Positions 459 to 51,242 of a stretch of DNA of 64,000 nucleotides are shown here, in pieces. Location of the stretch: assembly GCF_000238775.2 (NCBI RefSeq), contig NZ_AFEJ02000003.1, positions 310,001 to 374,000 of the forward strand, written 5' to 3'. Below the pieces are notes generated by a model that saw only the letters and a list, made by a program, of their open reading frames with translations, made no database searches and was not told the DNA's origin. The translations under genes were made by a program, and so were the position numbers. This DNA comes from Acaryochloris sp. CCMEE 5410. GTDB lineage: Bacteria; Cyanobacteriota; Cyanobacteriia; Thermosynechococcales; Thermosynechococcaceae. Numbering within the stretch: position 1 is the first letter of the stretch; every line of letters begins with the position of its first letter.

Positions 459-1775
459 ATGAAGGAAGCTATACAGCAAACTATTAAGGATTACACCATT
501 ATTCGATCTCTAGCACAAGGAGGATTTGGTGTAACATTCCTAGCTGAAGACAGTAACCAGAAACGACTAGTCATCAAACAACTAAGGCCAATCGCCCAAA
601 ATGACCTAGAGTCATCACTAACCTACTTCATAAAGGAATGCGATCGCTTAAAAGCTGTCGGACATCATGATCGAATCCCTACGTTTATTGAGTATTTTGA
701 GGAGGGTGGCCAGCACCATATCGTCCAGCAGTATATTCCTGGTCAAAACTTGCTGGAAGAAGCCAGGGGCCGAGATAGGTATTCTGAAACTGAAGTCATT
801 GACCTATTGCTTGATTGCCTCGAAACCCTCGATTTCATCCACAGCAAAAATTTAATTCACCGGGATATCAAACCAGCAAATCTGATCCGACGACAAATTG
901 ACAGCAAAATTTGTTTAGTCGATTTTGGCGCTGCTAAGGCGGTATCGGAAACAATATTAGCTAAAACATCCCATACCTTAATCGGGAGTGTCTCCTATAG
1001 TGCCCCCGAGCAGATGATCGGTCACGCTACTTATGCCTCTGATTTATACGCCCTCGGTGCTACCTGCTTATTCTTACTAACTGGCCAAGAGCCCACGGAT
1101 TTGTATAGCATCGCTGAGGATCAGTGGTGCTGGCAAGAGACCTATCAAACCTCACCCGAGTTTGCTGAAGTTTTAAATAAGTTAATCCATCGAGCAACCA
1201 GTAAGCGCTATACGACTGCCAAGGAAGCGCGGAATGATGTGGCTGATGTTTGCGATCGCATTCGGAAACGGGAAAAAAATGAAGCTCGTGCCCATCAAAT
1301 ACAAACGCTTCGCCGCCATCAACTGGTACGCACTACCCGTAAAGTTGCCTTGAGAGTAGCCGCTGTAGCCGCTCTTGGGGTGGGAATCTGGCAAGTAACA
1401 CCAGTGATTACTTCTAACATCGAAAAGCTTCCCACTATTATCACCACAGAGGATCAGCCCCCCATCATCATCGAAAACGATGAGCCAAAGCCCGAAGTCA
1501 ACCCCTTTGAATTTGAAGGAGATTCTAAAAGTATTGAAGAATTAGTAAAGTCAAAAATGATTGCTGCTGGTTATCCAGCAATGATTGTAGAGCCTATCCC
1601 CTTTATGCTCGGTGCAGTAAAATTTGTTGTTCTAGCAAGCGGTATATTCTCACTAGGTTTCACGTATATTTCTTTCTCAAGGGGAGAGCGATTAGACACT
1701 TCCCGATTAGTCACTTCTGGCTTGCTGATGATTTTCGTACTCATTGGCCCACATCTTTTAATCGCTCTGTTGTAG
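459..1775 (+). CDS. Serine/threonine protein kinase with C-terminal membrane segments
   Basis: A eukaryotic-type kinase domain fills the first ~270 residues: glycine-rich loop AQGGFG (19-24), the ATP-binding Lys40 in VIKQL, catalytic loop HRDIKPAN with Asp136, DFG at 155-157, and the SAPEQ (APE-like) motif near 181. All key catalytic residues are present, so activity is expected. A helix rich in Arg leads to one membrane segment near residues 300-320, and two more lie at the C terminus, giving a membrane-anchored kinase. A good Shine-Dalgarno (AAAGGAAAGGG) precedes the ATG. The next two genes follow within a few bases, so a membrane protein and a telomere-resolvase-like enzyme are probably co-transcribed with it. 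The phosphorylation target is unknown. Confidence 0.9.
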   Translation: MKEAIQQTIKDYTIIRSLAQGGFGVTFLAEDSNQKRLVIKQLRPIAQNDLESSLTYFIKECDRLKAVGHHDRIPTFIEYFEEGGQHHIVQQYIPGQNLLEEARGRDRYSETEVIDLLLDCLETLDFIHSKNLIHRDIKPANLIRRQIDSKICLVDFGAAKAVSETILAKTSHTLIGSVSYSAPEQMIGHATYASDLYALGATCLFLLTGQEPTDLYSIAEDQWCWQETYQTSPEFAEVLNKLIHRATSKRYTTAKEARNDVADVCDRIRKREKNEARAHQIQTLRRHQLVRTTRKVALRVAAVAALGVGIWQVTPVITSNIEKLPTIITTEDQPPIIIENDEPKPEVNPFEFEGDSKSIEELVKSKMIAAGYPAMIVEPIPFMLGAVKFVVLASGIFSLGFTYISFSRGERLDTSRLVTSGLLMIFVLIGPHLLIALL

Positions 1776-1787
1776 GTATTGATCAAT

Positions 1788-2033
1788 ATGTCTAAACAGA
1801 CTGGGCTTAAACTCACAACCATCTTCGTCACCATCCCTTTTGCCCTGGCAATCAGCACGGGCTTATCAATCCCAGTTGTATTTTCAATTTTGAATGCTTT
1901 AGGAATGCCAGACTGGTCCGCCCCTCAAAGGGATTTCGGCTGGCTGATAGCTGCATTGATCCTTAGCGCTGTTTCCTACTTTGTTGTCAGCAAAATTTTA
2001 GACGAGAACGACCAATCTCAGTCTCCTTCCTAA
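1788..2033 (+). CDS. Small membrane protein, two transmembrane helices
   Basis: This protein of about 81 residues has a hydrophobic helix near each end (LTTIFVTIPFALAIS and WLIAALILSAVSYFVV) and a short acidic tail. A TTG nine bases upstream could start it, but the ATG used here is the more likely start. It sits between the kinase and the telomere-resolvase-like gene with gaps of 12 and 2 bases, so it belongs to their operon. No family is recognised. Confidence 0.6.
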   Translation: MSKQTGLKLTTIFVTIPFALAISTGLSIPVVFSILNALGMPDWSAPQRDFGWLIAALILSAVSYFVVSKILDENDQSQSPS

Positions 2034-2035
2034 TT

Positions 2036-3979
2036 ATGAGAGCGTGGCTAAAATCAATCTACCAATCGACCTTTTTCCCTGCAATATCTAACTTGAAAGA
2101 TACTGAAGAAGACCGGGAAACAGCCTCGCAATGGGTAGTTTGGATGAGGAAACAGTGGTCAGGTCACGGACTAACCACCTTGAATCAACAAAAGAACCCA
2201 ATGACAGAGGTTCGGAGGGCACTTAAGGATCAATTATCACCAGACCACATCATTTTTGATTACATGCAATTTACTGAGAATCAGTGGATTGAGATTAACC
2301 TTCAAGCAGCTCCTACACCCATTGTCTATGGCGACCCGTTGATTAAAGACCCTGACACCATTGTCCACAGAGCGACCCAACTCCTAAATAGCCGTCAATG
2401 GGCTGATAGCCTAGCTGGCCTGACCGCAGTTACGGGGCGACGTTGCGCCGAGCTACTGAAAACAGCTACATTTGCCTATCAATCTCCGGTTAGTATTTGG
2501 CTCACTGGAGCAACCAAAGCCAAGCAAAAGGAACCTCTTTCTTTTGAGCTACCCACCCTTGCTCCCGCTCAACAGGTATTAGACATAATCTCCAAGGTCC
2601 GTAAGTTGGTGGATACAACGGGAATGAATAACCGGCAGATCAATGCTCAGTATGAAGCCGATGTGGTTACGGCCTGCGATCGCACCTTCTGGGATCTTCT
2701 TGATCACGAGCGTGTAGAAGGAAATATCTACAACCATCTTTCCCGCACTGTTTACGCCCGGATAGCTACTCTTTGGTACGCACCCCCACAAATCCTGGAT
2801 ATTGACTTCATGGCAGCAATCCAAGGCCACACCATTATCCTGGGAACCAATGACCTAGAGGATAAAAAAGCCCTCGCAGAAAAGCGACATTATTTTGATT
2901 ACCAGATCGGAACTCAACAAGGTCAAATAGATTCACGGCAAGGTATTCGTCTGAGTGACCCAGACGTGAGTTTTCTAGAGAATTTCCAAGGCGAGGATGA
3001 ACTTGCACCTAAAATAGAAGACACACCTGTACCTAATCCAGTCATGAGTCAACCATCTGCTAGCTCAATTCGGGTATACAAGAAAGACCGGCAACGCTTG
3101 ATGAAAATTCTGGAAGCGTATGGCATAGAGGGGACACGCCCTGAGCAAATGTCGGCGTTTATTTCCGAGGCAGAACAGAAACTCAAACAAACCCAGCTTC
3201 TTGAAAAGGGTGTTAAAGCGTTCATCAAGTCACTCAAAGCCCTGGAGACTCCTGAAGAGATTCGTGACCTCGTACTGAAAGAGATTGCCAAGTTTGAAGA
3301 TTACCCCGATTTCTTCGGAACTTATCGCAACGAGATTCAAGACGCAGTGAGATCGTGCAACTTACCACTCGTGGATGGTAAGACAGCTTTGCGATCGCAA
3401 AATGTCAAGGAAGGCGTCACCTATGAACAGCGAAAGCACTTCGCCTTATTATTTTTAGACAATCCAGATATGACACTTCAAGCACCTGAATCACTCGTAG
3501 CACCAAACAACGGCACACCAACCCCTTCAGCTACCACCACCGATCAAAAGCTGGATATCATCACCGATACGCTTACTCAGTTATGCCAGCTTATGCTTCA
3601 GCAGCAACAGCAATCGGTGCAGCAGCAACCCAACGTTGTTGGACAGACTATTCCTCTTTCACAACCTCCAGCCCCGGCGAAGAAGAGAGGGAGAGGCCGC
3701 TTAGATCCAGAAGAGGCAGATGCCAAGATTCACCGTGCTATCGATGCAATTATGGCTTTCAATGACACTGCCAACCGACCTCAAGAAGAGATGTGGCGAA
3801 TAGGAATTTCTTCACTTAAAAGACTTACGAGTTCGTCTCAGAGCGTCATTCAGAGGGTTTGCAAGAAGAGGAAAAAAGATATTGATGCCCATCATGAGAA
3901 GCACAATCTAGGAAAGTACCATAATCTACCCCATGGACATGCAGGGATTATGATCGATGATGTTATTGCCTGGGAGTGA
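2036..3979 (+). CDS. Telomere resolvase (protelomerase)-like tyrosine recombinase
   Basis: Residues ~110-290 fit the catalytic core of protelomerases (TelN/TelK/ResT family), which cut a palindromic site and reseal it as hairpin ends through a Tyr-DNA intermediate. The motif LTAVTGRRCAELLKTA carries the first Arg (135/136), as in protelomerases. Lys161/163 in a predicted hairpin, Arg237 in HLSR, His265 in IQGH and a Tyr (286 or 289) in HYFDY fit the remaining R-K-R-H-Y positions. The His-Tyr spacing is longer than in TelN, so the nucleophile is uncertain. A Gln-rich linker and a basic C-terminal region with a possible helix-turn-helix (~600-630) follow. The start lies 2 bases after the previous stop, so it is the last gene of the kinase operon. 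It could be an ordinary tyrosine recombinase relative, but the TGRR context argues for the telomere-resolvase branch. Confidence 0.7.
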   Translation: MRAWLKSIYQSTFFPAISNLKDTEEDRETASQWVVWMRKQWSGHGLTTLNQQKNPMTEVRRALKDQLSPDHIIFDYMQFTENQWIEINLQAAPTPIVYGDPLIKDPDTIVHRATQLLNSRQWADSLAGLTAVTGRRCAELLKTATFAYQSPVSIWLTGATKAKQKEPLSFELPTLAPAQQVLDIISKVRKLVDTTGMNNRQINAQYEADVVTACDRTFWDLLDHERVEGNIYNHLSRTVYARIATLWYAPPQILDIDFMAAIQGHTIILGTNDLEDKKALAEKRHYFDYQIGTQQGQIDSRQGIRLSDPDVSFLENFQGEDELAPKIEDTPVPNPVMSQPSASSIRVYKKDRQRLMKILEAYGIEGTRPEQMSAFISEAEQKLKQTQLLEKGVKAFIKSLKALETPEEIRDLVLKEIAKFEDYPDFFGTYRNEIQDAVRSCNLPLVDGKTALRSQNVKEGVTYEQRKHFALLFLDNPDMTLQAPESLVAPNNGTPTPSATTTDQKLDIITDTLTQLCQLMLQQQQQSVQQQPNVVGQTIPLSQPPAPAKKRGRGRLDPEEADAKIHRAIDAIMAFNDTANRPQEEMWRIGISSLKRLTSSSQSVIQRVCKKRKKDIDAHHEKHNLGKYHNLPHGHAGIMIDDVIAWE

Positions 3980-4017: not shown

Positions 4018-7000
4018 TTATTTTTGCTGTTTAGCTTCTTTAGCAAGTTTTTTAGCTCTGGCTTTAGTATCAAAGTTGAGGCGAGGATCCCATGTTTGGG
4101 CATCTTGAAAACCTTGTATCGCCTCTTCAATACGACCATCTTTAGCAAGTGATTCACTGTAGTCTACTAGAAAAGGTGCAGCCTCAAGGCGACGAGTAGG
4201 AGTTTGACAGACCTTCAGCTTTTGAAGTTCTCGTGGTGTGGTGATTAGATAGCTGTTGAGCCAATCGCAACCCCTAGCTAGCAATGTTTCTAAATCTTCA
4301 AAAGAAAACATCTCCATATAGCCTAAAGCTGTGCCAGTGATAAGGGTTTTACCACCATTAATCCAACTTATCCCTGTTATATCGCCAATATTGGATTTGA
4401 TTTCTGAAATTTGCCTACCATCTTGAGTCCACAATTTAAAATTCTCACCTGTTCCGACTGTTGCAAATATTTCGCCATCACTTCTCCAACTGACAAACCG
4501 GATTCCTCCTTGGTGAGCCACAATTGTTGCAACCGGATCTAACGCGCGTGTCCAAAGATTAACTTTTCCATCGTCTCCACCCGTCGCTAATACTTGGCCA
4601 TCCTGACGCCATTCCATACTCAGTACACTACTTTGACGGGATTGTATGGAAGCGATCAGCTTACCATGCTTAGTCCAAAGCTTTATGGTTCCGTCGTCTC
4701 CACCCGTTGCCAGAATTTGTCCATCACTATCCCAGCATATGCTATTTACCTGGCCTTGATCTGTCTGCCATGAGATTATTTTCTCACCACTACGAGTCCA
4801 CAGATGAACAATTCCATCATCACCACTTGAAGCTAAAGTTTGGCCGTTGTTACTCCACCTAATGTCTAATATTCTGCCTTTATGAGCTTTCGCTGATATG
4901 ATTTGCTTACCATCCCGAGTCCACAACTTTAAATTCCCATCAAATCCCGACGTAGCAAGAATTTGGCCATCCTTACTCAAACTTACTCTTAAGATACTCC
5001 CCCCACTTTTAACCTGAAAAGCGTTAAGCCACTTGCCATCCTCAGTCCACAGATCAACACTTCCGCTATCTCCTGTTGTGGCTAATGTTTTGCTATCTCT
5101 ACTCCAACTCATACTCAATATACTTCGCCCAGGCCCTTTATTGCCTTCAGAAGGACCAACTGAAGTAACTAATTCTTTCCTTGGCATTAAAAGCCTCAAA
5201 AATTCTTTTGAACTGTTTTTAGATGACTTTTTTGTGAACAAAGCTAATGTTTTGCCATCATTACTCCAACTGACAATTTTGAATATACTCTTTTTATCTT
5301 CGAATATCGTAGTAGGTTTGAGTGCACGATTCCACCGTTTCACAGTTCCATCACGTCCACTAGTGACAAGAGTTTGGCCGTCTCCGATCCAACTTACATT
5401 AAAAACTCCTATTGGATGAGCTCGTAACGAAGTGATCAGCTCTCCCTTTCTGTTTCGCAACTCCACCATACCTTCACTTCCACTTGAGGCTAAGGCCAAA
5501 ATCTGGCCATTTCTACTCCAACTCACACTCATTATCCTGCCTTCACCAGGCTTAGTTATTGAGGTAATCATTTCACCTGATCGAGTCCACAGATTCATCG
5601 TCCCGTCAAATGGACTAATAATCCCTTGATAACCTCCTGTAGCTAAAATCTTGCCATCCCTGCTCCAGCTAATGCTTTCAATAGTGCCTTGTTTAGCCTT
5701 TATTTTTCTTATTAGTGTGCCTGATCGAGTCCACAACTTAATAGCAGTATCAAATGCATCCACGCTCATTCCATCACTACCACATGTAGCGAGGATTTGA
5801 TTATCATTGCTCCAATCCATACATACAACATGATGTTGAAAAGCCTTAATTGTTCGAATTGCTATGCCTGATCGAGTCCACAACTTAACTGATCCGTCCT
5901 CTCCTCCTGTAGCCAAAATTTGTCCATCAGAACTCCAACTTATACTTAATACCTTGCCTTCATGAGCCTCAATCAATTTGATTGGCTCACCAACTCGTGT
6001 CCATAACTTAACTGATCCATCCTCTCCTCCTGTAGCCAAAATTTGTCCATCAGAACTCCAACTCATGCTCATGACCTTTCCTTGGTGAGGATCAAAGAGA
6101 CGCTCTCGAATGTTGAATAATATCTCTAAGAGGGTTCCTATAGGTCTCAGTGCAGGATATTGTTCTAGGGTCAGTTTGTGATTGACTAATTGGACATCAT
6201 ATGAGGCTGTTTTTTGCTGAACTAAGAATTGTAATTCTTGACCCATTAGTAGTGCATTTAGCAACGCTCCAGACTCATCTAATCGGAACTGTCTTAACAC
6301 TGCGGTATTTTGACGCTCAAGCTCAGACCCTTGTAAGGCAATACGAGTTCTTAATTGGGCATCCTCCAAGTCAACTTCTGCTTTTCGACGCTCTGACTGA
6401 GTGCGCAAAAGTTGAATTTGAGCAGCTTCTAAGTAGTACTGTGCTTGATACTTTTCTTGTTCTAATTCATGTTTAGATTGGCTGACCTGTCTAAATCGCT
6501 CTTCAACCTGTCCAACTCTTTGTCGCGCCCGATGAAACTTTTGTAAAGCTTGTCTTTCTTTTTGGCGAGCAGCAGTGACCCTACGTTGGGATTCACCAAG
6601 TTTATTCCTTGCAATCTTAATCTGATTTTTGCGCTTCGTAAGGTCTTTATTGATCCTTATTAATCGTTGATCTTTTATTTCAATTTTATCTTGAGCCTCT
6701 TGTACCTCTTGCTCAAATTGTTTTGCCCTGATCCCTGCCCGATTTGCTCGTTTTCCTTGGTTCCATGCCAAGACAACTGTTCCGAGTACGACAACCACTG
6801 AAACCACAGTAGTTGTGAAGAGTTGTTTAGTAGCCCTTTTGCGAGCCGTCGTAAGAATAGCCTTTTCTTCTTGTTCGACCTGCAAACGTCTTTCAGTATC
6901 CTGACGCTCCAAAGCTTGACTAGCATCCAGAAAGTTCCGATCAAGATCGCTGATGTACCGACTCTTTGCCCAAGCTTCAGCTTCTCGCAGCGCCTGCCCT

Positions 7001-8151: not shown

Positions 8152-8153
8152 CG

Positions 8154-9494: not shown

Positions 9495-9775
9495 CACTAG
9501 GACCGATTGACAACACTTCAATTAATCACATGGTATCGCTAGAAGTTCAATCGGTTTTCAAATTTCCTGATTATTGCTGATTAGCTTCAATGAGTTTTGC
9601 TACTCATCCTGACAAAACCTGATTTTTATAGTAGTTGATGCCTTATTAGCGAAGATACTATCAGGATTAGATATCCTATTTCTTCCCCATTGAGAATTTA
9701 GTTTGTCTCCTGAATGATTGGACTTATCAATTCAATCGATGTGATAAAAAATTGGGTCACTCAAGGAGAATAGAA

Positions 9776-21097: not shown

Positions 21098-23095
21098 ATG
21101 CTATCCGCTGTTAATGTCAGCCCTGAACTGGCTGCAAGTTACTACTACGCCGAAGATATATCCCCTCGTCAAAATCGATGGGTGGGCCTGGGCGCTGTCA
21201 AGTTGGGATTGAAAGGAGAAGTTCTTGAAAACGACTTTCGCAAAATAGCGTATGGTAAGTTCCCCAATGGCATCCGCTTTCGTCAGTACACCCCTCCGAA
21301 GGGATGCATGAGTCGAGCCTTTGTAGATGGCACCCTATCTGCACCTAAAAGCGTTAGTTTTTTAGCCTTGTTGGATAAACGCGCTGACGTACAGTTGGCG
21401 GTCAATAATGCCGTTGATACTACGCTTGGAGTACTTGAGCGTAATTACAGCCAATGCCGAATCATGACAAACGGCATTAGTCGAACTGTTACCACAGGTA
21501 ATCTCATCATTGCAGTGTTTGAGCACCATACCAGCCGTGCCCTAGACCCCGAGTATCACCACCACTGCCTAATTGCTAACACCACACAGGCTCCGAATGG
21601 TCGGTACTATTCCCTCAAAAATGATGCTTTCTGCAAGCACCACCGGAAACTATTGGGGACCATTTACCAAAATGAGCTGGCCTGGAATCTGAGAAATTTG
21701 GGGTTCTCCATCAAGCCGCATGGCAATGGCACCTTTGATGTGATTGGATACACGCGATCGCAGATTCTCCACTTTTCTCAGCGAAGAGTGCAAATTTTGG
21801 AAACTGCACAAGGCCCTAGCTGGAAACAGAGGCATGTAGGCAACCTCAGAACTCGAACAGGAAAGCAAATCATACCTGAAGAAGATCTTAATCAGGAATG
21901 GGAGCAAAGGGCTGCTCTCATTGAGTTACCTCGGCTCGTTCCCCAGCCACATAGGTTAGCCCAAGTTTCAGATCTGAATCTAGAGTTACCCAACCAAGAG
22001 GAAGTAACCCAAGAGCAATTAATCCAAGACACTATTAATCAGCATTTTGGGGAATTTTCCTACTTCACCATCGAGGCCCACGTCAATCAAATTCTTCAAC
22101 AATCAGGAGAGAACATCAATGCCTACGGAAGCCCAAGAGCTGACTCTTCAAGATATTCACGAACTACTCAACCAGCGGTTAGACCAGTTCGAGCAGAATC
22201 AAACTCTCTTTCAGCAGAGCTTAGAACAATTGCTGATCGACTTTCTCAAGCAATTAACCGAAAAGCTGGAGTCAGAAGGGTCCAACGAGCTACAAGAGCT
22301 ATTAGAACAATTACAGAAAACCTTAGAAACCGTATCGGGACAACTTACAGATCAGGCCAGTACCGAAACGCAGCTTATCAGCTCCATGGCCAACTTAACC
22401 GAACAACTGTCCACCTTCAATCCTGGAAATTAGCTCGGGTAATAAGCAAGAGGAAAGTCCATCGTGCTGTGATTGCACATGTTGAACTTGGCAAGCTCAA
22501 AACCTTGAATCAGATGCTTCAGCTTCAATCTGGCCAAGTTGCCAAGGGTTTGTCACAACTGGAGCAATCTCTTTACAGAACAAGCCTGAAACTCTACGCA
22601 GTGCGGATTTCTAAGGCCGTCATCAAAGTGTCCCACCAAAGACAAATTCGGGAGGTGAAACTACCGGAACAACTCAATCAGAAACTTTATCAAAGGATTA
22701 TCCAGAAACGGCCTTATCGAAAGATGCAACTTGCGATCGCAAAGTGCAGCAAGCAGCTCTCTCATCAACAGGGATTAGAAGCAGCGAAGTCAATTCGTAC
22801 TATGTTCCTGGAGGTCGGTGTTGGTCAACAAGTTAGAGGGGGACACACCCTTAACGCGCAATCCCATATCTACAAACTTCAGGGGCAGCAGATCACTGTT
22901 GAAGCTAACGATGGGCGTGGACAAATCCTGTCAATACGTGGAGAGACAGTAGAAAGCAACCATTTAACGACTAAGGATCTAAAGGTTTTCCAAAAGCTGA
23001 AGCAAAAAGTGGAGAAATCCCTATCTCGCAAACGCGGGGAGCAACAGCCTCCATCGCCAAAATCCACTCGTCAAATTAACCCTATCAAACTTTAA
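21098..23095 (+). CDS. MOBF-type conjugative relaxase (TrwC-like, no helicase)
   Basis: The N terminus has the catalytic tyrosines in ELAASYYYAED (Y15-17) and the metal-binding HUH region TSRALDPEYHHHCLIANTTQ, as in TrwC/TraI. The relaxase cuts one strand at oriT, stays bound to its 5' end and is pumped into the recipient. At 665 residues it lacks the C-terminal helicase of TrwC; after ~residue 320 it is Gln/Arg-rich. The last ~90 residues form a module also seen at the C termini of the 331-aa protein just downstream and a 394-aa protein in the mating operon. Another gene is encoded inside it in a different frame. A plasmid helicase must be supplied by another protein. Confidence 0.88.
   Translation: MLSAVNVSPELAASYYYAEDISPRQNRWVGLGAVKLGLKGEVLENDFRKIAYGKFPNGIRFRQYTPPKGCMSRAFVDGTLSAPKSVSFLALLDKRADVQLAVNNAVDTTLGVLERNYSQCRIMTNGISRTVTTGNLIIAVFEHHTSRALDPEYHHHCLIANTTQAPNGRYYSLKNDAFCKHHRKLLGTIYQNELAWNLRNLGFSIKPHGNGTFDVIGYTRSQILHFSQRRVQILETAQGPSWKQRHVGNLRTRTGKQIIPEEDLNQEWEQRAALIELPRLVPQPHRLAQVSDLNLELPNQEEVTQEQLIQDTINQHFGEFSYFTIEAHVNQILQQSGENINAYGSPRADSSRYSRTTQPAVRPVRAESNSLSAELRTIADRLSQAINRKAGVRRVQRATRAIRTITENLRNRIGTTYRSGQYRNAAYQLHGQLNRTTVHLQSWKLARVISKRKVHRAVIAHVELGKLKTLNQMLQLQSGQVAKGLSQLEQSLYRTSLKLYAVRISKAVIKVSHQRQIREVKLPEQLNQKLYQRIIQKRPYRKMQLAIAKCSKQLSHQQGLEAAKSIRTMFLEVGVGQQVRGGHTLNAQSHIYKLQGQQITVEANDGRGQILSIRGETVESNHLTTKDLKVFQKLKQKVEKSLSRKRGEQQPPSPKSTRQINPIKL
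22119..22433 (+). CDS. Overprinted coiled-coil protein inside the relaxase gene
   Basis: A 104-residue protein encoded in another frame within the relaxase gene. A consensus Shine-Dalgarno (CAGGAGAG) stands at proper spacing before MPTEAQELTLQDIHELL. The sequence is a clean Leu/Gln/Glu heptad-type coiled coil (NQRLDQFEQNQTLFQQSLEQ and so on), unlike the Arg/Ser-rich low-complexity text of the relaxase frame here. Mobilisation plasmids such as RSF1010 also nest accessory genes (mobB in mobA), so a relaxosome accessory role is plausible. No homologue is claimed. Confidence 0.6.
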   Translation: MPTEAQELTLQDIHELLNQRLDQFEQNQTLFQQSLEQLLIDFLKQLTEKLESEGSNELQELLEQLQKTLETVSGQLTDQASTETQLISSMANLTEQLSTFNPGN

Positions 23096-27113: not shown

Positions 27114-29234
27114 TTATTCTAATTCACCATACTTTGGACTCCACCATTTCCCCTTACTAAAGAAATAGGCAGCGTTTTTGTGCTTTGGCTTTGACCTTGC
27201 CTTTGGATCTGAGCATCGGAGCATTTGTTTTTGCTGGCCATCTTTTTGATACTTGTATATTTCCAGCTTCTTCTGGCACACAGGACAAGGATATTCAGTT
27301 AATTCTGCTGGCTCTTGAGGCATATCAGATTTAGCCTTGGGCAATTGCCACTGACCGTCTCTGTCTGACCAGAACATAACTAACCCCCGGCCATCATCAG
27401 CCGCGCAACCGTTCTCACACTTAAGAAAATGCCCTTTTTTGACCTTCCTACTAAGCACCTTAGACAGAAGTTGTTTACATTTGGGACATGAGGTTTTTGA
27501 CTTCTCTAATGTTCTACCTGTAAGTTCCGGTAAGCCCTGCATGGCCTTGGCGAGTGCCGGGGCGAAGTAGCTCCGATTCCAGCCGATTAAATAAGCTTGC
27601 CATTCCTGATTCCCTCCCGCGATCGCATCCAAGGAACTCTCCATCTGGGCCGTGAATTCAGCCTCCAACAATTCAGGCAGTGCCCCACCCATGAACTGAT
27701 CCACCTCCAGGCCCATAGAAGTGGGTTGGAGCCTACCCTTTATCAGCTCAACATAGCCACGGGTCTTAATGGTCTTGATCGTGGAATCGTAAGTAGAGGG
27801 TCTGCCAATCCCTTTCTTCTCCATAATTTCCACTAGCTTAGGTTCCCTGTATCGGGGAGGCGGTTGAGTCTGCTTTTGCTCAGAATTGGCCTGGGCTAGA
27901 GTGAGTGCTTGTTGTTCCGTCAGTGCAGGCAGCTCCCTATCAGCCTTGATATCCTTCCAATATTTTGAGTAACCCGCAAATTCAACAAGGTTGCCCTTGG
28001 CCTTCCACTGGATATCCCCAGATTGGCTAAGGACAATCGTTTTTCTAATTTGGGCGGGCTTGCACTGGGAGGCAAGCGCCCGCTTCCAAATCAGCACATA
28101 TAACTTGAACTGGTCATCGGGTAGGGACTGCTTCAATTCTGCGGAGGGCTTGAATATATCTGTGGGTCGAATAGCTTCATGCCCTTCCTGGGCTTGCTTA
28201 CTGACCTTCTGCTTGGCTACCTTCTTGGGAATATTGTCTGCATCGTTCTGCTCCAGCCATCTTCTGGCCACTGAACAGTAGTCCGGGGATAGCGCGACAG
28301 AATCGGTTCGCATGTAGGTGATTAATCCAGCCTCGTATAGCTTTTGGGCAACCTGCATCGTCTGCTCTGGACTGAACTTGAGGCGTGAACCTGCGGCTTG
28401 TTGCAGAGCTGAGGTGGTAAACGGTGCGGGTGGCTTCTTGGGGGCAACCCTGCCTTCAATCGAGGTAACTTGGTGAGAGTTATTCTGCGCGATCGCAACC
28501 AGTGAATCAGCGCCAGCCTGGGAAAGGACTCGCGTGGATTCTTCGGTTTTGGCCTCTGAACCGGAGTCCTCGATGTTGGTATAGTCCTGATCATTGGCCT
28601 GGGTGCTTCCGTGGTAGTAAGCCCTGAATCCTTCGGCATAATCCACAAACACCGACCAGTAATCCTCGGGGACAAAGGCTTGAATCTCGCGCTCTTGTTG
28701 GCAGACCAAGTGGAGGGTCGCTGATTGCACCCGCCCCACTGACTTAGCACCATTGTTTAAGCGCCAGACCAGGGGGGAACCACGATACCCGACCAGCTTA
28801 TCCAAGCAGTCTCGACACCTACCGGCTTGAACTAAATCCATATCCAATGGACGTGGAGTTGAAATAGCATTGTTTACTGCTGTAGGCGTAATTTCTTGAT
28901 AGACCACCCGTTGAGGATTTTTTAAATTTAAAACCTGAGCGATATGCCAACCAATCGTTTCTCCTTCACGATCTGGATCGGATGCTATATAGACTTGATC
29001 TGCCTGACGTGACGCTTTTCTCAATCCAGAAATAGTTTTTTGGGCATTCGCATCTCGTGGAACATACCGGCATAAAATCTGATTCCCTTCAATATCAAAG
29101 CCCAAAGATCCTTCCCCATCATCCGCTAACTGACGAATGTGCCCTACAGATGCCTTAACATCCCAATTAGGACCAAGAATCGATTTGAGCTTTTTGATTT
29201 TTCCAGGAGATTCAACAATGAGTAAATTTCCCAC
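27114..29234 (-). CDS. topA: Type IA DNA topoisomerase (topoisomerase I)
   Basis: The TOPRIM motifs are LLIVESPGKIKKL at the start and SDPDREGETIGWH; the catalytic Tyr is in GLITYMRTDSVAL. Two C-terminal zinc-ribbon-like segments follow (CPKCKQLL and CPVCQKKL). It relaxes negative supercoils by passing one strand through another. At 706 residues it is shorter than most chromosomal cyanobacterial enzymes. Plasmid-borne type IA topoisomerases beside T4SS genes (TraE/TopB-like) are known to assist conjugation or replication. It is the last gene of the long minus-strand mating cluster. Confidence 0.93.
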   Translation of the reverse strand: MGNLLIVESPGKIKKLKSILGPNWDVKASVGHIRQLADDGEGSLGFDIEGNQILCRYVPRDANAQKTISGLRKASRQADQVYIASDPDREGETIGWHIAQVLNLKNPQRVVYQEITPTAVNNAISTPRPLDMDLVQAGRCRDCLDKLVGYRGSPLVWRLNNGAKSVGRVQSATLHLVCQQEREIQAFVPEDYWSVFVDYAEGFRAYYHGSTQANDQDYTNIEDSGSEAKTEESTRVLSQAGADSLVAIAQNNSHQVTSIEGRVAPKKPPAPFTTSALQQAAGSRLKFSPEQTMQVAQKLYEAGLITYMRTDSVALSPDYCSVARRWLEQNDADNIPKKVAKQKVSKQAQEGHEAIRPTDIFKPSAELKQSLPDDQFKLYVLIWKRALASQCKPAQIRKTIVLSQSGDIQWKAKGNLVEFAGYSKYWKDIKADRELPALTEQQALTLAQANSEQKQTQPPPRYREPKLVEIMEKKGIGRPSTYDSTIKTIKTRGYVELIKGRLQPTSMGLEVDQFMGGALPELLEAEFTAQMESSLDAIAGGNQEWQAYLIGWNRSYFAPALAKAMQGLPELTGRTLEKSKTSCPKCKQLLSKVLSRKVKKGHFLKCENGCAADDGRGLVMFWSDRDGQWQLPKAKSDMPQEPAELTEYPCPVCQKKLEIYKYQKDGQQKQMLRCSDPKARSKPKHKNAAYFFSKGKWWSPKYGELE

Positions 29235-31373: not shown

Positions 31374-33140
31374 TTATAGGTTTCTAAACTCTTCAGCATC
31401 CTTAAGACGCTGCTTCTCTAATGCAGCCTCCTGCTCTGGCGTCAATCGAGCTTTTAGAAGCTCGTATACCTCTTGATCTCGATTCCGAAAATCTTGATTT
31501 GTTGGCATTGAAAAAGCTGATCTTTCTATCAGCTCTTGCCGAATCTTTGGCCATTGTTTTACGCTTGCGTTTACCTCATCAATATCCCTCTGAGGAATGA
31601 CGATGTTTTCCACCAGGGGAACACGAACATTTTTACCATCACTATTGCCACGACTGAAGATCAGTGCTTTTCCACGAGGGAAAGTGGCAATTTCATTTGG
31701 TTCAACTAACTTAGTCGTTTGGCGCTGTTCAGCATTGGTTGTAGACCGACTTTTTCTACCGCTACTTCTAGATCTTTGCCGAAATAATGCGTCTTCACTA
31801 CCTGGAAGTTCTGCGAATAGCTTAGCAGATTCTGACTCATTGAGCTGGAAAATAGCTTGAGTCGTGCAGCCACCAAGAATACGGCTTGCCCCCGGCTTCG
31901 TATAAAGCTTTTCTAGCATCTCCATACTTTGAAAGCCCAAAATTGTGCAAAGACCTGCTGAGCGCCGTTGGTTCAACCAATCATCCAGGGCGGGTAAGAA
32001 GATAGATGGTATTTCATCCAACCCCAATATCAATGGAGTCTGGCGAGGACGAGTAACATTACGATTGACAACTAAGTGCAATACCGTTGCAATAATAGGC
32101 AACACAACATCCACACACTGTCCATTAACTCCAAATATCAAGAGCTGCCGACCCTCTAAGTCAAGTGGCATGTTTGTTTTGCCACATATTGCAGGTAGTA
32201 CATTAGGAGTCATTAGGTTGCCCAAGGTATTGGACACCGTAGACACAATACTGGCGAATGTCTCAGGAGAATCCTTTGAGGAAATCATGGTATCAAATAC
32301 CACTTTGACCATCTCTGGAATATCAGCCTGTTCAATGAGATCTGCCAGATTTGGTGTTTTGAGAATGCTCCTGCACATCATTAGGTCTGGATACTGACTC
32401 ATTTTGGCCAGCATCATCAACCCCTGAATGAGCTTTTGGGCTGCTTGGGGAAAAAATGGATTGCCTTCGCTAGACTTTGCCGGTGTGAAATTCCTATGCA
32501 AGACCAAGGCAAATTGACGTGCTATTTCAGCATCCAGCTCATTAGCCAATAAATCGACTGGATTAACAATGCATGACTCAGGCAAGCTGGGAGCGAAAAC
32601 ATTGACTTTATAACCTCGTTTTTTTGCTATGCCAATTAATTGCGAGGTTGGCGACTCTTTATCCGTATACTTCAAGTCGAAGTAAATGACTGGGAAATGC
32701 TGGTCAAATGCTGCTTTAATCAGTCGGTTAATCAACGAGTAGGACTTTCCCGAACCCGTTGCCCCGATCGCGGCTGTACCAGCTTCCATGTTCGGGAAGT
32801 ATAAGGTTTGTGGATCTTCTGGAATACTAATAACCGTCTTCTTCCCCTTCTTCCGGTATCTCAGTCCTTCAGGGGTTTGGATATACAACGCCACCTCGTT
32901 ATGCCGCCTCCGCTTGATCAGCTTCATAGCTTCTTTGCGGGCAGCAGCTTTGTGGGTATCTGTTGCAAGTTGCCCCCTCGCCAATACACCCTTGCGCTTT
33001 TGACCTTTAAAGTTTGTCGCGACTAACAGTCCCAAGCACGCATAAATCCCTAATGCGGGGGGAGACCATAGATAAGAATCCACATCCACCTTAGGTGGAG
33101 ACTTAGGGTTTTCGACGGCTTGGGCGGTGAAATGCTTCAT
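31374..33140 (-). CDS. virD4: Type IV coupling protein (VirD4/TraD family ATPase)
   Basis: Walker A GATGSGKS is at 126-133 and Walker B at LILGLDEIPSI; an N-terminal membrane helix (GIYACLGLLVATNF) anchors it. T4CPs receive the relaxosome and feed it into the mating channel. The 588-residue length is normal. Its ATG overlaps the stop of the preceding gene (ATGA), showing translational coupling. Only one N-terminal helix is clear where most T4CPs have two. Together with the relaxase and VirB4 it makes the plasmid self-transmissible by inference. Confidence 0.9.
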   Translation of the reverse strand: MKHFTAQAVENPKSPPKVDVDSYLWSPPALGIYACLGLLVATNFKGQKRKGVLARGQLATDTHKAAARKEAMKLIKRRRHNEVALYIQTPEGLRYRKKGKKTVISIPEDPQTLYFPNMEAGTAAIGATGSGKSYSLINRLIKAAFDQHFPVIYFDLKYTDKESPTSQLIGIAKKRGYKVNVFAPSLPESCIVNPVDLLANELDAEIARQFALVLHRNFTPAKSSEGNPFFPQAAQKLIQGLMMLAKMSQYPDLMMCRSILKTPNLADLIEQADIPEMVKVVFDTMISSKDSPETFASIVSTVSNTLGNLMTPNVLPAICGKTNMPLDLEGRQLLIFGVNGQCVDVVLPIIATVLHLVVNRNVTRPRQTPLILGLDEIPSIFLPALDDWLNQRRSAGLCTILGFQSMEMLEKLYTKPGASRILGGCTTQAIFQLNESESAKLFAELPGSEDALFRQRSRSSGRKSRSTTNAEQRQTTKLVEPNEIATFPRGKALIFSRGNSDGKNVRVPLVENIVIPQRDIDEVNASVKQWPKIRQELIERSAFSMPTNQDFRNRDQEVYELLKARLTPEQEAALEKQRLKDAEEFRNL

Positions 33141-46760: not shown

Positions 46761-47753
46761 ATGTTGGATAAGCTATGTTGCCCGCTGTGCGGTAGCTCGA
46801 TCTATTTTTTGCTAGATAGACCTAGCCAACTCATCACATGCAAAACCTGTCGGTTTTCAAGCAAGATTAATCAGGTCCAAGTGGAAAGCCATGACAGCAT
46901 AACCACTCAACAAAACAATAGGGATTTAACTAGTTGGAGACACAGGCTACGTGTCCGTCCGCTGACCAGCGAAATTGGAAAGCAAATGAAATACTTAGTT
47001 GAATTTGATTTGGCCAGAGACACTTACGTTGCCTCTCTTGGGGATAAGATAGCGTTATTTCACAGGTATAGGCAAGGAAGTTTTAGTGATTTGTTTGCAA
47101 TTCGTAATCTAACGATTCAAACGACTATACCTATCAAAACAATCAAATCGGAGCCTAGAATTGCTGGCCTTGGTATCTCAATCATCGCTCTATCTGGGAT
47201 ACTCTTGCTCTCTAATTCAGTCGGCAGCTATAAAAATCTATTGCAATACTCCGCAGTACCTCTTAGTGCTGCCATTGGCCTCACCGCCATGAAGACTTAC
47301 CAAAAGCGACTTTGTGGGCAATCTGAAGCCAGCATCATTCAAGAGCAAGGGTTAATGAGGAATATTCATGAGTTACTAGTCAAACTGAGTAGAGTTCAAG
47401 AAGAGATTACGGCTCGGGCTCAATCACTCTCAGAGTGGCAAGAGCTTGAGCAATCTACAAAAACCATTGATGGCCATGGGCCAAATGTAGCGAACATTGA
47501 AAAAGCGATCGCTCTGATACAGCAGCAACAGCATTCGGCTGAAATCTTGAAAGACAAATACGACCAACAAATTAAGCTGTGGTGGCTTGAACTTCAAGCA
47601 TCACGACTTAGTGATGAACTACCGGTGGACCTGATTCAAGTAGAGACCACTAGGCAGCACGAAATAGCTGAACTTGAGGACTCTTACCATTTGTTGGCTT
47701 TGCAACAAAATTTCCATGCAGAGACGGATAACCAACAGAATTTAAGCACTTGA
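46761..47753 (+). CDS. Membrane protein with N-terminal zinc ribbon and coiled coil
   Basis: The chosen start gives MLDKLCCPLCGSSIYF; a GTG 45 bases earlier would extend it into the divergent gene's start. A four-Cys zinc ribbon (CPLC and CKTC) is followed by a ~100-residue domain, two membrane helices (LGISIIALSGILLLS, LLQYSAVPLSAAIGL) and a long coiled coil (~200-320). No family recognised. It is the only plus-strand gene within the mating/replication block and converges on the replication gene. Confidence 0.65.
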   Translation: MLDKLCCPLCGSSIYFLLDRPSQLITCKTCRFSSKINQVQVESHDSITTQQNNRDLTSWRHRLRVRPLTSEIGKQMKYLVEFDLARDTYVASLGDKIALFHRYRQGSFSDLFAIRNLTIQTTIPIKTIKSEPRIAGLGISIIALSGILLLSNSVGSYKNLLQYSAVPLSAAIGLTAMKTYQKRLCGQSEASIIQEQGLMRNIHELLVKLSRVQEEITARAQSLSEWQELEQSTKTIDGHGPNVANIEKAIALIQQQQHSAEILKDKYDQQIKLWWLELQASRLSDELPVDLIQVETTRQHEIAELEDSYHLLALQQNFHAETDNQQNLST

Positions 47754-50700
47754 AATATTAACTGAACTCTGTATGGGTTCTAGGTTCTGGAGCGGGCAGG
47801 GGATATCAACAAGATCAACAGGTTGGCCAACCCAACTTAACCACGCGAACTCATTCACAATTTTCCTTACCCGGAAGACGACCTGATCCCCGCATCTTTT
47901 AACTAAAGCACCAGGACTAATGTCTGGAAGATTTAGATTAGATACCGGCAAGGTAATCAAACTGGGTTTCTGGGTATTCTCTATTTTGGTTTTGGCTACA
48001 CCTCTGCTTATAATTATACATTTTTGAGTTGCAGGTGTAGCCACTTCAATCCCTTTATTTTCAGTGCATTCAGGCGCTTCCATATATTGTTGGAATCGAG
48101 TTTCAATGCATTCCAACAACACATGATTGAGTTCTATATTATCTGGAGAAATAAAATAATATCTCCGCTTTCCTCTTTCGCTATTGCGCTGCCAGTTTTG
48201 CTCGACTTCAGTCTTGCCGCCAATTAGTTTTGCTAGACGCCCCAGAAACTCCATAGGTTTTTGCTTACCCACTGTGCGTTTTAGCGCTGTCACGATTTCT
48301 CGTCGTTTACAAGTACGATAGATTTGCTGAATTAAACTGGATGAGCTGTTAAAAGATTGGTTGGACTCGAAAAGCGCTAGCAGATTGATCTTGCATAGAG
48401 CCTCAATAAGAGCGAAGTCTGAACGAATGTCAGGCAAGAAGGGAATTGCGCCATCCTCCATCAGTTTTTCCCAGCGCTGGCGGCTTCGGTTCTGGGCAGC
48501 AGTTTGGTGATTGATCAACCACCAGCGTTCGAGGGAAGGAATTAGGGATCGATTCGTAAACAGAAGGGCTTTAACGACATCGGGGGTCCAGTAGTCTGTT
48601 CGATGTAATCCAGGAAGTCGGTGTAGGAGGAACGCTTTATCACAGCTCCACCGTTCTGCGAGAGTTGCACTCCACCTAGATTTAATGTGAATGGCTTGGG
48701 AAAGTGTAATATCCTTGGCATTAAATATTGCCTGTGCATCGGTGGTTAGGATCTGATCGCGAATTTCAGAAGCTTCTTCTTTTAAGCTGGTGACTTGAGG
48801 AAGATCAACAATGGTTACTCGATGCCCAGCTTCTTGGAGAGCAAGTCTAAGGCAGTCCCAGGTATGCTTTCTCTCATAGTTGATGGATGCAGCCAGAATA
48901 TTGTGTGTGGAAAGGTGAGGATCGTTATAGGTTTTGAGTAGTTTATTGATCCACTCTTTGACTGTAGACTCCCGATCCGATCCTTGTAAGGCGGCGAAGG
49001 CATCGGCTCTGAGATAATCCGTCATCCATTGTTGGAGGCGACGGGGGAGGACTGAACGAGTCCCTTCATCTTCTGTGTGCGTGTATCGCTTACACCAGAC
49101 CGCTATTTCTTTCAAGGCTCTGACCCGCTGCATCATTTGGGTCATGCTGGAAATTGGCAACACACCGAAAAAGAGACCAAATCCCTTGTAGAAGAAGTTC
49201 TGAATGCCTACATTTAAACCACTTTCTGCTGTTGGTGAGTAGATCAAGACTCGGGGTTGAGTTTCTTCTAGATAAAAGTCAGGGTCTTTTAGAAACTGCT
49301 TTACCTCTTTATTCGGAGAGGTTTTAGAGTCAACCCGAAGGGTTGAATAGCCTCGCTGTTGAAACAGTGATTCTGCAATCTGACATTGCCGTTGAGAGTC
49401 CGAAAACAAAACGATTGAACGCGGGGTATTAGATGGAGCTAAATCTAAGGCGGCCAACGTGTCAAATGCTAACTGTAGAACTGGTGAACGTTCGTCAATC
49501 GTGTTTCCTTCGGCGGTAATCGTATTCCCCAATAGCTCAATATGCAGTTGTTGCCGCTGATAGGTGTTGAGGATTTTACGGCATGTCCCTACCTCTCTCA
49601 ATTGCGCGAGATAGTCCACGACGACATCAGTATTGTTACCGTCCATTGGTAGTACAAGTTTTGCTCGTTGGATTGCAGCTTTAAGCTTTGCCAGACATTT
49701 ATCTCTTTTGCCAGTGAGGGTACCAGACATCAACCCGTGGAGGACAACACTAAGGCTTTCATCTAAGATGACGATTTTCCCGTCAAAATCCTTGTCTTCA
49801 AAGCGAGTCAAGGAATCTAAGCAACAGGCGATTCTGGATTGGGGATCTGGGATAAGGGGTTGGGCAGAATCGGAATGTAGGTGATAGAATCCCGGCCAAC
49901 GTTCACAGGACTGGAGTAGAAGGGAGTTCCGGTATCCAATTGCTACGGCACCGTCTGAAATCTGGCTGAAGTAGTTTTTTAGCCATTCCGTTTTCCCAGT
50001 CCCCATGCCTGATTTAATCGCAACGATGTCAGCTCCATCTAGATCTGCCGGTTGCAGATTCAGAAATTGTTCATGAATCGTTTGAGTGGGCGTAAATTGC
50101 CGTGATTTTTTCCAAATCTTTAGGGATTGTTGCTCATACTGATGCTGCCATTGATCGTCAATGATGGCTTTACTCATCGCCAGGTAAGTGCTGGGTGTGA
50201 GCAGCCTGATTTGTTGTTGTTTATCGAGGTCTAATTCATCAATATCGCTATCATCATCGTAGGAATGTTGGTCCCACCAAGCGATACTTAGCGAATACCC
50301 CCAGCCTTGTAGAAGAGATGCCGTTTTAGCGATCGCAATATAAACCGACCGATTGGAACTATCACCGGCATCTGGATAGAGGATGATTTGCTCAGGCTGT
50401 AGCACCTCTAGGGTCTCTTTCACCGCTTCAGGGCTAGAGGCAAAGTTAAACCCCGTCGCGCCGATAAAGGTTATCCCCATTTGCTGGCTAGCGAGATAGG
50501 GTTTGAGGGCAACGCTATCAACTAAGCCAATAGTTTTAGAGTCAGTTCTATGAACGGCGATGGGGGATTCTCCCGTTGGGAGCTGCGGCCCGCTGCCGGG
50601 GATGGGTAATTTATCTGAACTGGAGCTAACCCAAAAGTAACCGCCCCCAAAGTTAGGGCGAATTTGCACACCGGTGATCTGACCATGGACGTTGGGAACT

Positions 50701-51242
50701 GCGATCGCAAGTCCCTGATAATATCGCCGCAATAATCCAGTGGATGGATCTACCCCTGGGAGATTGAGTGGGAGCAAGGGGAGTTTGGCGTTGTCCTGCC
50801 AGGTCCAGAATAGGTGTTTCTCAACGGCCTGATGTATTTGATTATTCGACAGACCCCGATGCTCTATGAGGTGTTGGCGTTGTTGCGACCCTAGCCCTGC
50901 ACTAGCAGCAATACGATGGAATTGATAGTCTCGCTCTTCGATACTGGGAAGTTGAGATAGCCGTTGAGCCCGTTCAGCAGCTAGTTGTCTCTCTCGGGCT
51001 AAGCGTTCCTGTTCTTGCTCTTGAGTTGGATTGGAACGCTGGCTATGGGCCTCGGCGGTGATGTACTTTCCAAATCCGTGAGTGTCGAAACCGTCAAATC
51101 GGTACTCTCCTGAGTGATTCTCAGGGCCACGACAAAAATAGGTTCCTGAACTTGACTTTCGACAATCTGGCTTGCCGCGAGAGCCATTGCAAATGGGGCA
51201 AAGGTCGCCAAGTTTGTTCTTGTAGTAGTGAAAGCTAGACAT
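47742..51242 (-). CDS. CyRepA1-family plasmid replication protein (primase/helicase-like)
   Basis: An N-terminal Cys/His zinc-binding region (CPICNGSRGKPDC and then CRGPENH) and a TOPRIM-like domain (IGLVDSVALKPYLASQQMG, EQIILYPDAGDSS; DUF3854 type) lead into a helicase with Walker A AIKSGMGTGKTEWL, DExx-like KIVILDESLSVVLHG and a motif VI QMMQRVRAL. This architecture is that of CyRepA1, reported to support autonomous replication of cyanobacterial plasmids. The usual TOPRIM Glu is replaced by Asp (LVDSVALK). 1166 residues. The origin may lie in the 576-bp upstream gap. Its 3' end overlaps the convergent gene by 12 bases. Confidence 0.8.
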   Translation of the reverse strand: MSSFHYYKNKLGDLCPICNGSRGKPDCRKSSSGTYFCRGPENHSGEYRFDGFDTHGFGKYITAEAHSQRSNPTQEQEQERLARERQLAAERAQRLSQLPSIEERDYQFHRIAASAGLGSQQRQHLIEHRGLSNNQIHQAVEKHLFWTWQDNAKLPLLPLNLPGVDPSTGLLRRYYQGLAIAVPNVHGQITGVQIRPNFGGGYFWVSSSSDKLPIPGSGPQLPTGESPIAVHRTDSKTIGLVDSVALKPYLASQQMGITFIGATGFNFASSPEAVKETLEVLQPEQIILYPDAGDSSNRSVYIAIAKTASLLQGWGYSLSIAWWDQHSYDDDSDIDELDLDKQQQIRLLTPSTYLAMSKAIIDDQWQHQYEQQSLKIWKKSRQFTPTQTIHEQFLNLQPADLDGADIVAIKSGMGTGKTEWLKNYFSQISDGAVAIGYRNSLLLQSCERWPGFYHLHSDSAQPLIPDPQSRIACCLDSLTRFEDKDFDGKIVILDESLSVVLHGLMSGTLTGKRDKCLAKLKAAIQRAKLVLPMDGNNTDVVVDYLAQLREVGTCRKILNTYQRQQLHIELLGNTITAEGNTIDERSPVLQLAFDTLAALDLAPSNTPRSIVLFSDSQRQCQIAESLFQQRGYSTLRVDSKTSPNKEVKQFLKDPDFYLEETQPRVLIYSPTAESGLNVGIQNFFYKGFGLFFGVLPISSMTQMMQRVRALKEIAVWCKRYTHTEDEGTRSVLPRRLQQWMTDYLRADAFAALQGSDRESTVKEWINKLLKTYNDPHLSTHNILAASINYERKHTWDCLRLALQEAGHRVTIVDLPQVTSLKEEASEIRDQILTTDAQAIFNAKDITLSQAIHIKSRWSATLAERWSCDKAFLLHRLPGLHRTDYWTPDVVKALLFTNRSLIPSLERWWLINHQTAAQNRSRQRWEKLMEDGAIPFLPDIRSDFALIEALCKINLLALFESNQSFNSSSSLIQQIYRTCKRREIVTALKRTVGKQKPMEFLGRLAKLIGGKTEVEQNWQRNSERGKRRYYFISPDNIELNHVLLECIETRFQQYMEAPECTENKGIEVATPATQKCIIISRGVAKTKIENTQKPSLITLPVSNLNLPDISPGALVKRCGDQVVFRVRKIVNEFAWLSWVGQPVDLVDIPCPLQNLEPIQSSVNISSA

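Follow-up and report, generated by a model that had tools for sequence, protein, structure and literature searches.

A telomere-resolvase family gene on a plasmid contig of Acaryochloris, and its relatives on replicons with palindromic ends

Hairpin telomeres have been studied in a few phages, in Borrelia and in Agrobacterium. All known telomere resolvases are stated to cut the two strands 6 bp apart (PMC3558466, which mentions cyanobacteria in passing), and hairpin plasmids have been reported in one cyanobacterium, Nostoc N6, where three plasmids (pNPM8-10) are described as linear molecules that end in hairpins and have an end motif in common (PMC5987646). NCBI already labels relatives of the protein treated here "protelomerase family protein" and the Nostoc plasmids are in print, so the novelty that we can claim is limited: what is new is a cyanobacterial clade of telomere resolvases with a fused domain, for which we predict an odd stagger. 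Our literature search, with most subscription papers and all preprints outside its scope, returned nothing on odd palindromes or on Acaryochloris telomeres.

In this paper, we ask what one such gene might be doing on a cyanobacterial plasmid. The stretch of DNA that we analyzed (64,000 nucleotides, hereafter the window) comprises bases 310001-374000 of contig C3 (416,239 bases), one of 23 contigs in an 8.09-Mb genome of Acaryochloris sp. CCMEE 5410, a cyanobacterium of the chlorophyll-d type. The original prediction had read from the letters a telomere-resolvase homologue on a cyanobacterial plasmid, and each part of that phrase has stood up. The gene and its parts are as follows.

2036..3979, + strand: telomere-resolvase (protelomerase) family gene, 647 aa, by PF16684 profile and fold matches
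2036..2308, + strand: N-terminal helical domain, residues 1-91, which aligns with the helical-bundle part of TelA
2348..2965, + strand: catalytic domain, about residues 105-310, with R135/R136, K161, H234, R237, H265 and Y286
3203..3460, + strand: post-catalytic helical segment, about residues 390-475, by homology through the L034 segment
3488..3703, + strand: low-confidence linker that includes a Gln-rich run, from model and alignment
3704..3976, + strand: C-terminal domain, residues 557-647, conserved and helical, at best resembling a winged helix

The reading frame is open and intact, and the motifs first noticed by eye (a TGRR-containing Arg motif, a Lys pair, HLSR, QGH and HYFDY) are all present in the order given: TGRR (R135/R136), K161, HLSR (H234-x-x-R237), QGH (H265) and HYFDY (Y286). 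Such a set is partly common to all tyrosine recombinases, which we count against the resolvase reading, and one might imagine that the protein is simply a tyrosine integrase or recombinase that resembles resolvases. The motif match is not a matter of chance, because the ResT-TelK catalytic-domain family PF16684 matches at 84.9 bits (E 6.7e-24) over a curated Pfam cut-off of 27. At E<=1, Pfam returns only that family and one sub-threshold DUF for the 647-aa protein, with no integrase family. The NCBIfam TelA equivalog NF052462 scores 41.9 bits against a cut-off of 800, and we therefore treat the protein as a member of the family and do not file it as a TelA orthologue.

The argument for an integrase is residue H234, which is His as in tyrosine recombinases, where TelA and ResT have Tyr (PMC3558466). 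The catalytic set of the ResT/TelK resolvases (Arg, Lys, then His, Lys or Tyr, then Arg, His and Tyr) is complete in the window protein, and R135, R136, K161, H234, R237, H265 and Y286 are each kept in 35 of 35 aligned relatives, so that His at 234 is universal in that alignment. Of 54 members, 44 have His at this position, 6 Lys, 3 Gln and 1 Leu, and TelN has Lys there; the position is therefore variable within the resolvase family itself. A profile built from eight cyanobacterial members and run against PDB sequences finds TelA (5.6e-21), TelK (2.2e-16) and ResT (4.9e-7), with no integrase among the 8 distinct sequences returned at E<=1. Neither the window protein nor the 35-sequence alignment found a relative in the viral contigs scanned, and 50,697 phage records gave no match to the window protein.

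The predicted fold points the same way. An AlphaFold2 model built from the 35-sequence alignment (mean pLDDT 79.9) has the two-domain architecture of TelA: in a structure search it matches TelA with Z 20.5 over residues 3-298 (275 aligned, rmsd 9.5), TelK with Z 16.8 and ResT with Z 14.4, and the integrases rank below all resolvases, the best of them being XerA at Z 8.2. The original prediction had asked for exactly this comparison with TelK and ResT and would have yielded had the protein fallen among the integrases; with a fold match so far above them, it did not. With Pfam, the PDB profile and the fold ranking all on the side of the resolvases, we reject an integrase identity, to which we now give hardly any credence, and regard the homology of the window gene as firm: judged on sequence, it is a genuine member of the telomere-resolvase family and of a cyanobacterial clade within it, its nearest named relatives lying in Acaryochloris assemblies.

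The original prediction held that a Gln-rich and basic C-terminal region differs from known members, which is right when TelK, TelA and ResT are the standard and wrong if taken as a private oddity, the domain being common to cyanobacterial relatives. The Gln-rich stretch is a poorly conserved linker (residues about 520-550), and residues 557-647 form a basic, conserved and confidently modeled helical domain. A profile of this domain, built from 49 of the 54 alignment rows, matches 114 ORFs in the collected loci, and in 97 of these ORFs the catalytic domain is present too (many loci overlap, so the matches are not independent of one another). Among the other 17, the domain stands in the gene directly downstream of a compact resolvase of 340-350 aa in five of five small Nostocales plasmids (L043, L198, L048, L047 and L042), and the rest are pieces of broken copies and of Chloroflexota loci. 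Because the domain is a separate gene in one lineage and fused in another, the comparison suggests a working partnership between the two. A fold search with the domain alone gave no match at E<=0.001, its Z of at most 5.0 falling mostly on helix-turn-helix regulators. A role in DNA binding may be entertained. When the L034 copy is used as query, the post-catalytic segment of the Acaryochloris type aligns with the N-terminal domain of a different cyanobacterial resolvase lineage at 54.7, 52.4 and 41.6 bits (bit scores are what matter here, the E-values having been computed for 21 sequences); the window's own segment (390-475) aligns to L034 at 41% and is recognized through it.

What sort of replicons carry such genes? 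In Nostoc N6, matches to the family fall on exactly the three linear plasmids among ten, the seven circular ones being absent from the full 26-record match list. A 106-base palindrome at the start of one contig (G078:C53), beside a gene of the Nostoc N6 clade, contains the Nostoc N6 end motif. Chondrocystis plasmid2, which has an enzyme of the window type (35% identity over aligned pieces), carries 189-nt palindromes at both ends of its record. Terminal inverted repeats are present in 11 of 15 resolvase-carrying records or contigs, three of the 15 being records of the same L. boryana plasmid, versus none of two gene-free control plasmids of the same strains (AP018303 and AP018285).

With terminal inverted repeats: AP018305, AP018302 and AP018304 (all labeled circular), CP026683 and AP018283
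With terminal inverted repeats: AP018205 and CP092421 (the same plasmid), G078:C59 and G127:C6
With inverted repeats offset from the very end: AP014641 and NC_019775
Without a terminal inverted repeat: AP018284 (93-base palindrome at one end), AP017309 and G042:C12
Without a terminal inverted repeat: AP014640, which stops 483 bases short of the AP018205 end

AP018304 had also been considered as a gene-free plasmid with terminal repeats, an idea that we dropped, there being a catalytic-domain ORF at 2243-3391. The three Fischerella NIES-4106 plasmids labeled circular (AP018305, AP018302 and AP018304; L193, L194 and L200) have inverted ends of 1.5-2.9 kb at 99-100%, and they are probably linear. 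Among the L. boryana plasmids (L146, L147, L150-L153), AP018205 and CP092421 share the same end bases and 444-bp terminal inverted repeats, one being labeled linear and the other circular; pLBX ends 483 bases inside their shared end.

The position of the gene tells a similar story. Among the 34 named contigs with a length of 10 kb or more (from 47 loci), 9 have the start of the gene no farther than 1.6 kb from their upstream end (2.1 expected, P 1.3e-4), and 4 have its end no farther than 1.6 kb from their downstream end (P 0.16), distances being measured from the match start and the 1.6-kb cut chosen after they had been seen. Such tips near the gene reach a palindrome score of at least 19 in only 2 of 16 cases, versus 15 of 4000 random internal starts.

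Some observations from farther afield belong beside these. In the Chloroflexota chromosome of Ktedonosporobacter rubrisoli (CP035758; L105 and L117), the same even palindrome core lies downstream of both resolvase genes, one core having perfect arms of 606 bases and lying some 6.8 kb into the 11.3-Mb record, and a hairpin telomere is possible there. In Phormidesmis priestleyi (L087), the 15 kb surrounding the resolvase gene contain three long hairpins with arms of 26-31. We also considered G421 as a linear chromosome, its gene being 8 kb from a contig end with inverted end homology, and rejected it; the homologous stretches include TniB/TniQ-like genes (by eye), and near that end a resolvase and Tn7-like genes are grouped much as in a repeat shared by contigs C1 and C3 of our genome.

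The palindromes themselves raise a second question, namely, the geometry of the cut. Palindromes centered on TC-W-GA with a score of at least 10 occur at only six places in 2.74 Mb of loci (some overlapping):

Chondrocystis plasmid2, both ends, and plasmid3, one end: TC-A-GA
Contig tips of Chroococcus FPU101 and Microcoleus FACHB-1515: TC-A-GA
G027, at the center of a perfect palindrome of 6.16 kb that has the resolvase gene on both arms: TC-A-GA

When the center is not fixed, there are nine odd palindromes with a score of at least 18, six of them TCAGA. In a quick tree, with open forks and three very long branches, the enzymes of the five TC-A-GA replicons fall in the sister clade of the Acaryochloris enzymes, and all five replicons of that clade with a readable telomere center have odd palindromes on TC-A-GA. 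The other cyanobacterial tips read are even: that of G078:C53 and that of G078:C59, the latter with TCATGA, which is the Agrobacterium overhang (PMC3558466).

The sister-clade palindrome is odd and centered on TC-A-GA, so the stagger of the cut should be odd as well, and 5 bases fits; because the palindrome has a single central base, a 6-base overhang is excluded for symmetric folding. A five-base overhang T-C-A-G-A is predicted to pair T with A and C with G and to leave A at the hairpin tip. Read on one strand, the left and right ends of Chondrocystis plasmid2 have A and T at their centers, as an odd stagger predicts and as a mirrored assembly would also look. To extend the odd stagger from these enzymes to the one in the window is our inference. 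In G027, the perfect palindrome (L030, G027:C1:2103191-2123190, centered at 2113190) has arms of 3,079 bases with one resolvase gene per arm, in a single contig of 4.68 Mb; it resembles two telomeres with 3-kb terminal repeats joined by the assembler, and the chromosome could be linear. In the pieces of G027 that were sampled, GC skew gave too faint a signal to locate a terminus.

We can now return to the plasmid on which the window gene sits. Its surroundings include

459..1775, + strand: Ser/Thr protein kinase gene, upstream
1779..2033, + strand (same strand as the resolvase gene): 84-aa ORF with a TTG start, probably membrane (by eye), 2-bp gap before the resolvase gene
21098..23095, + strand: TrwC-type relaxase
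27114..29234, - strand: type I DNA topoisomerase
31374..33140, - strand: TraG/TraD coupling protein
47742..51242, - strand: CyRepA1 family plasmid replication protein (588 bits)

The replication protein, relaxase, coupling protein and topoisomerase make C3, on its sequence, a contig of a conjugative-type plasmid. Two AAA_35-domain genes, one with a WD40 tail, stand side by side next to the resolvase gene (4018-9497), and farther along (10788-13232) the plasmid encodes a large RTX-repeat protein with a metallopeptidase-like stretch.

Is this plasmid linear? The original prediction was that the replicon or a relative may be, or may have been, linear, or else that the enzyme has another recombination role, and relatives bear out the former with linear replicons and palindromic or hairpin ends. 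For the plasmid itself, the picture is mixed. The ends of C3 overlap in inverted orientation (11.1 kb at 98.7%), unlike those of C4 and C5 in the same assembly, where the overlap is direct (14.9 and 10.2 kb at 99%), the pattern that circles give. The end repeat is found only at the start of C1 and at both ends of C3, always facing outward, and it carries resolvase copies. The C3 ends might, then, be where a linear plasmid naturally terminates, with a resolvase copy at either end. The repeat (L033:1-15302, L031 and L032) holds, along with the resolvase, UvrD/PcrA-like helicases, an adenine methylase and TniQ/TnsC/TnsB-like genes, the last named by eye (NCBIfam gave one sub-threshold IS481-like match). 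Because the repeat carries transposition genes, a long unresolved transposon would explain the break at the C3 ends as well. The palindrome search that the original prediction proposed came back empty: in the whole 416-kb contig, no palindrome scores above 20 (the best few resemble ordinary stem-loops) and no TC-W-GA-centered palindrome reaches 10, the inverted end repeat holds no hairpin palindrome, and the genome contains no copy of the palindrome made by mirroring the Nostoc N6 end motif. The contig ends may be unassembled, and the target may sit on another replicon. Weighing these, we place natural termini somewhat short of an even chance.

A target elsewhere brings in another possibility, that the plasmid is circular and that its enzyme, or a chromosomal paralogue, serves transient linear elements in trans. 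PF16684 matches five places in the genome: the window gene, C1:9341, C1:329535 and two broken copies near the C3 ends. The copy at C1:329535 (L034:8438-12328), on a contig of the Acaryochloris chromosome, adjoins psbD (D2, an identification by eye). The psbD gene is 98% conserved in L074 and L077, and the adjacent resolvase is syntenic in L074 (eight further genes in the same order) and psbD-adjacent in L077. One family member is present in each of the six other same-genus genomes examined, and NG86 dN/dS among L034, L074 and L077 is 0.07-0.09, a figure that covers those three copies (the synonymous sites of the window gene itself are saturated). The genome of Acaryochloris Moss Beach has been published and is described there as a single chromosome with ten plasmids, all of them circular (PMC9029297). 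With one member per genome, such low dN/dS and a published all-circular strain, the genus appears to keep a resolvase under selection while no linear replicon has been demonstrated in it, for which service in trans would be the simplest account. ResT is described as acting in trans from the circular cp26 (PMC4379921), and the empty palindrome search on C3 fits as well. Against service in trans, most of the other cyanobacterial members are encoded by the very element that is linear, and no linear element has been demonstrated in this strain; we hold it tentatively, at distinctly less than even confidence.

That a genus for which an all-circular genome is published keeps this strongly conserved copy on the chromosome could also mean that the enzyme makes no telomeres and has been recruited to a different task, for instance the processing of palindromes or of replication dimers. 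That seems unlikely to us, the full catalytic set, the TelA-like fold and sister-clade members on replicons with palindromic tips all speaking against it.

The window gene, then, has its family, its predicted fold, an intact active site and relatives on replicons with terminal inverted repeats and palindromic tips, and we think it probable that it encodes a true, hairpin-forming telomere resolvase of a cyanobacterial clade. In such a mechanism, a dimer would bind the palindrome left by copying of a linear replicon and would cut both strands through Tyr286; each 5' overhang would be folded back and resealed to give two covalently closed hairpin ends, while the fused C-terminal domain and linker would hold the telomere-proximal DNA. 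If the sister-clade palindromes are a guide, the odd-stagger cut would leave one unpaired base at the hairpin tip. The substrate might be the plasmid that encodes it, some other linear replicon of the cell or the two together. Against this reading stand the lack of a telomere-like palindrome in the 416-kb C3, the conjugative type of the plasmid, the circular replicons of the Moss Beach genome and the four of 15 records without a terminal repeat.

One may go further and suppose that the clade breaks the 6-bp rule, with an odd 5-bp TC-A-GA stagger and one unpaired tip base, and that Acaryochloris has carried such an enzyme beside psbD genus-wide, so that linear replicons are old, overlooked and often filed as circular; this is a conjecture that we would sooner doubt than assert. 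Why it might matter is easily said. Hairpin telomeres look widespread in cyanobacteria, and three public Fischerella plasmids labeled circular have near-perfect terminal inverted repeats. With the odd palindrome, the 6-bp rule, said to hold for every known enzyme, can be tested directly by biochemistry, and the C-terminal domain, split in some lineages and fused in others, points to an unstudied partner of telomere resolution. The conserved chromosomal copy leaves one to ask why a genus with a published all-circular genome would need a resolvase at all.

How does the window protein compare, finally, with the enzymes already described? It is most like TelA of Agrobacterium, with which it shares a helical bundle and a catalytic domain as well as the same Arg, Lys, Arg, His and Tyr; unlike it, the window protein has a post-catalytic segment and a C-terminal domain that the PDB model of TelA does not contain, as well as His where TelA has Tyr at position 363, and the TelA overhang is the even, 6-base TCATGA (PMC3558466). 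With TelN and TelK (of N15 and phiKO2) it shares the catalytic domain, and the N15 site lies just upstream of its gene, as the tips of L090 and L102 lie 0.6-1.1 kb upstream of theirs; it differs in that TelN has Lys at the H234 position and that the N15 palindrome is even (28-base arms). ResT of Borrelia is alike in the catalytic domain, on which that likeness is judged, and unlike in its Tyr at the H234 position (PMC3558466). The "protelomerase family proteins" of Nostoc N6 pNPM8-10 belong to a separate clade, a contig of which (L046) has an even palindrome center, but like the window protein they are long cyanobacterial enzymes, and their replicons are linear with hairpins.
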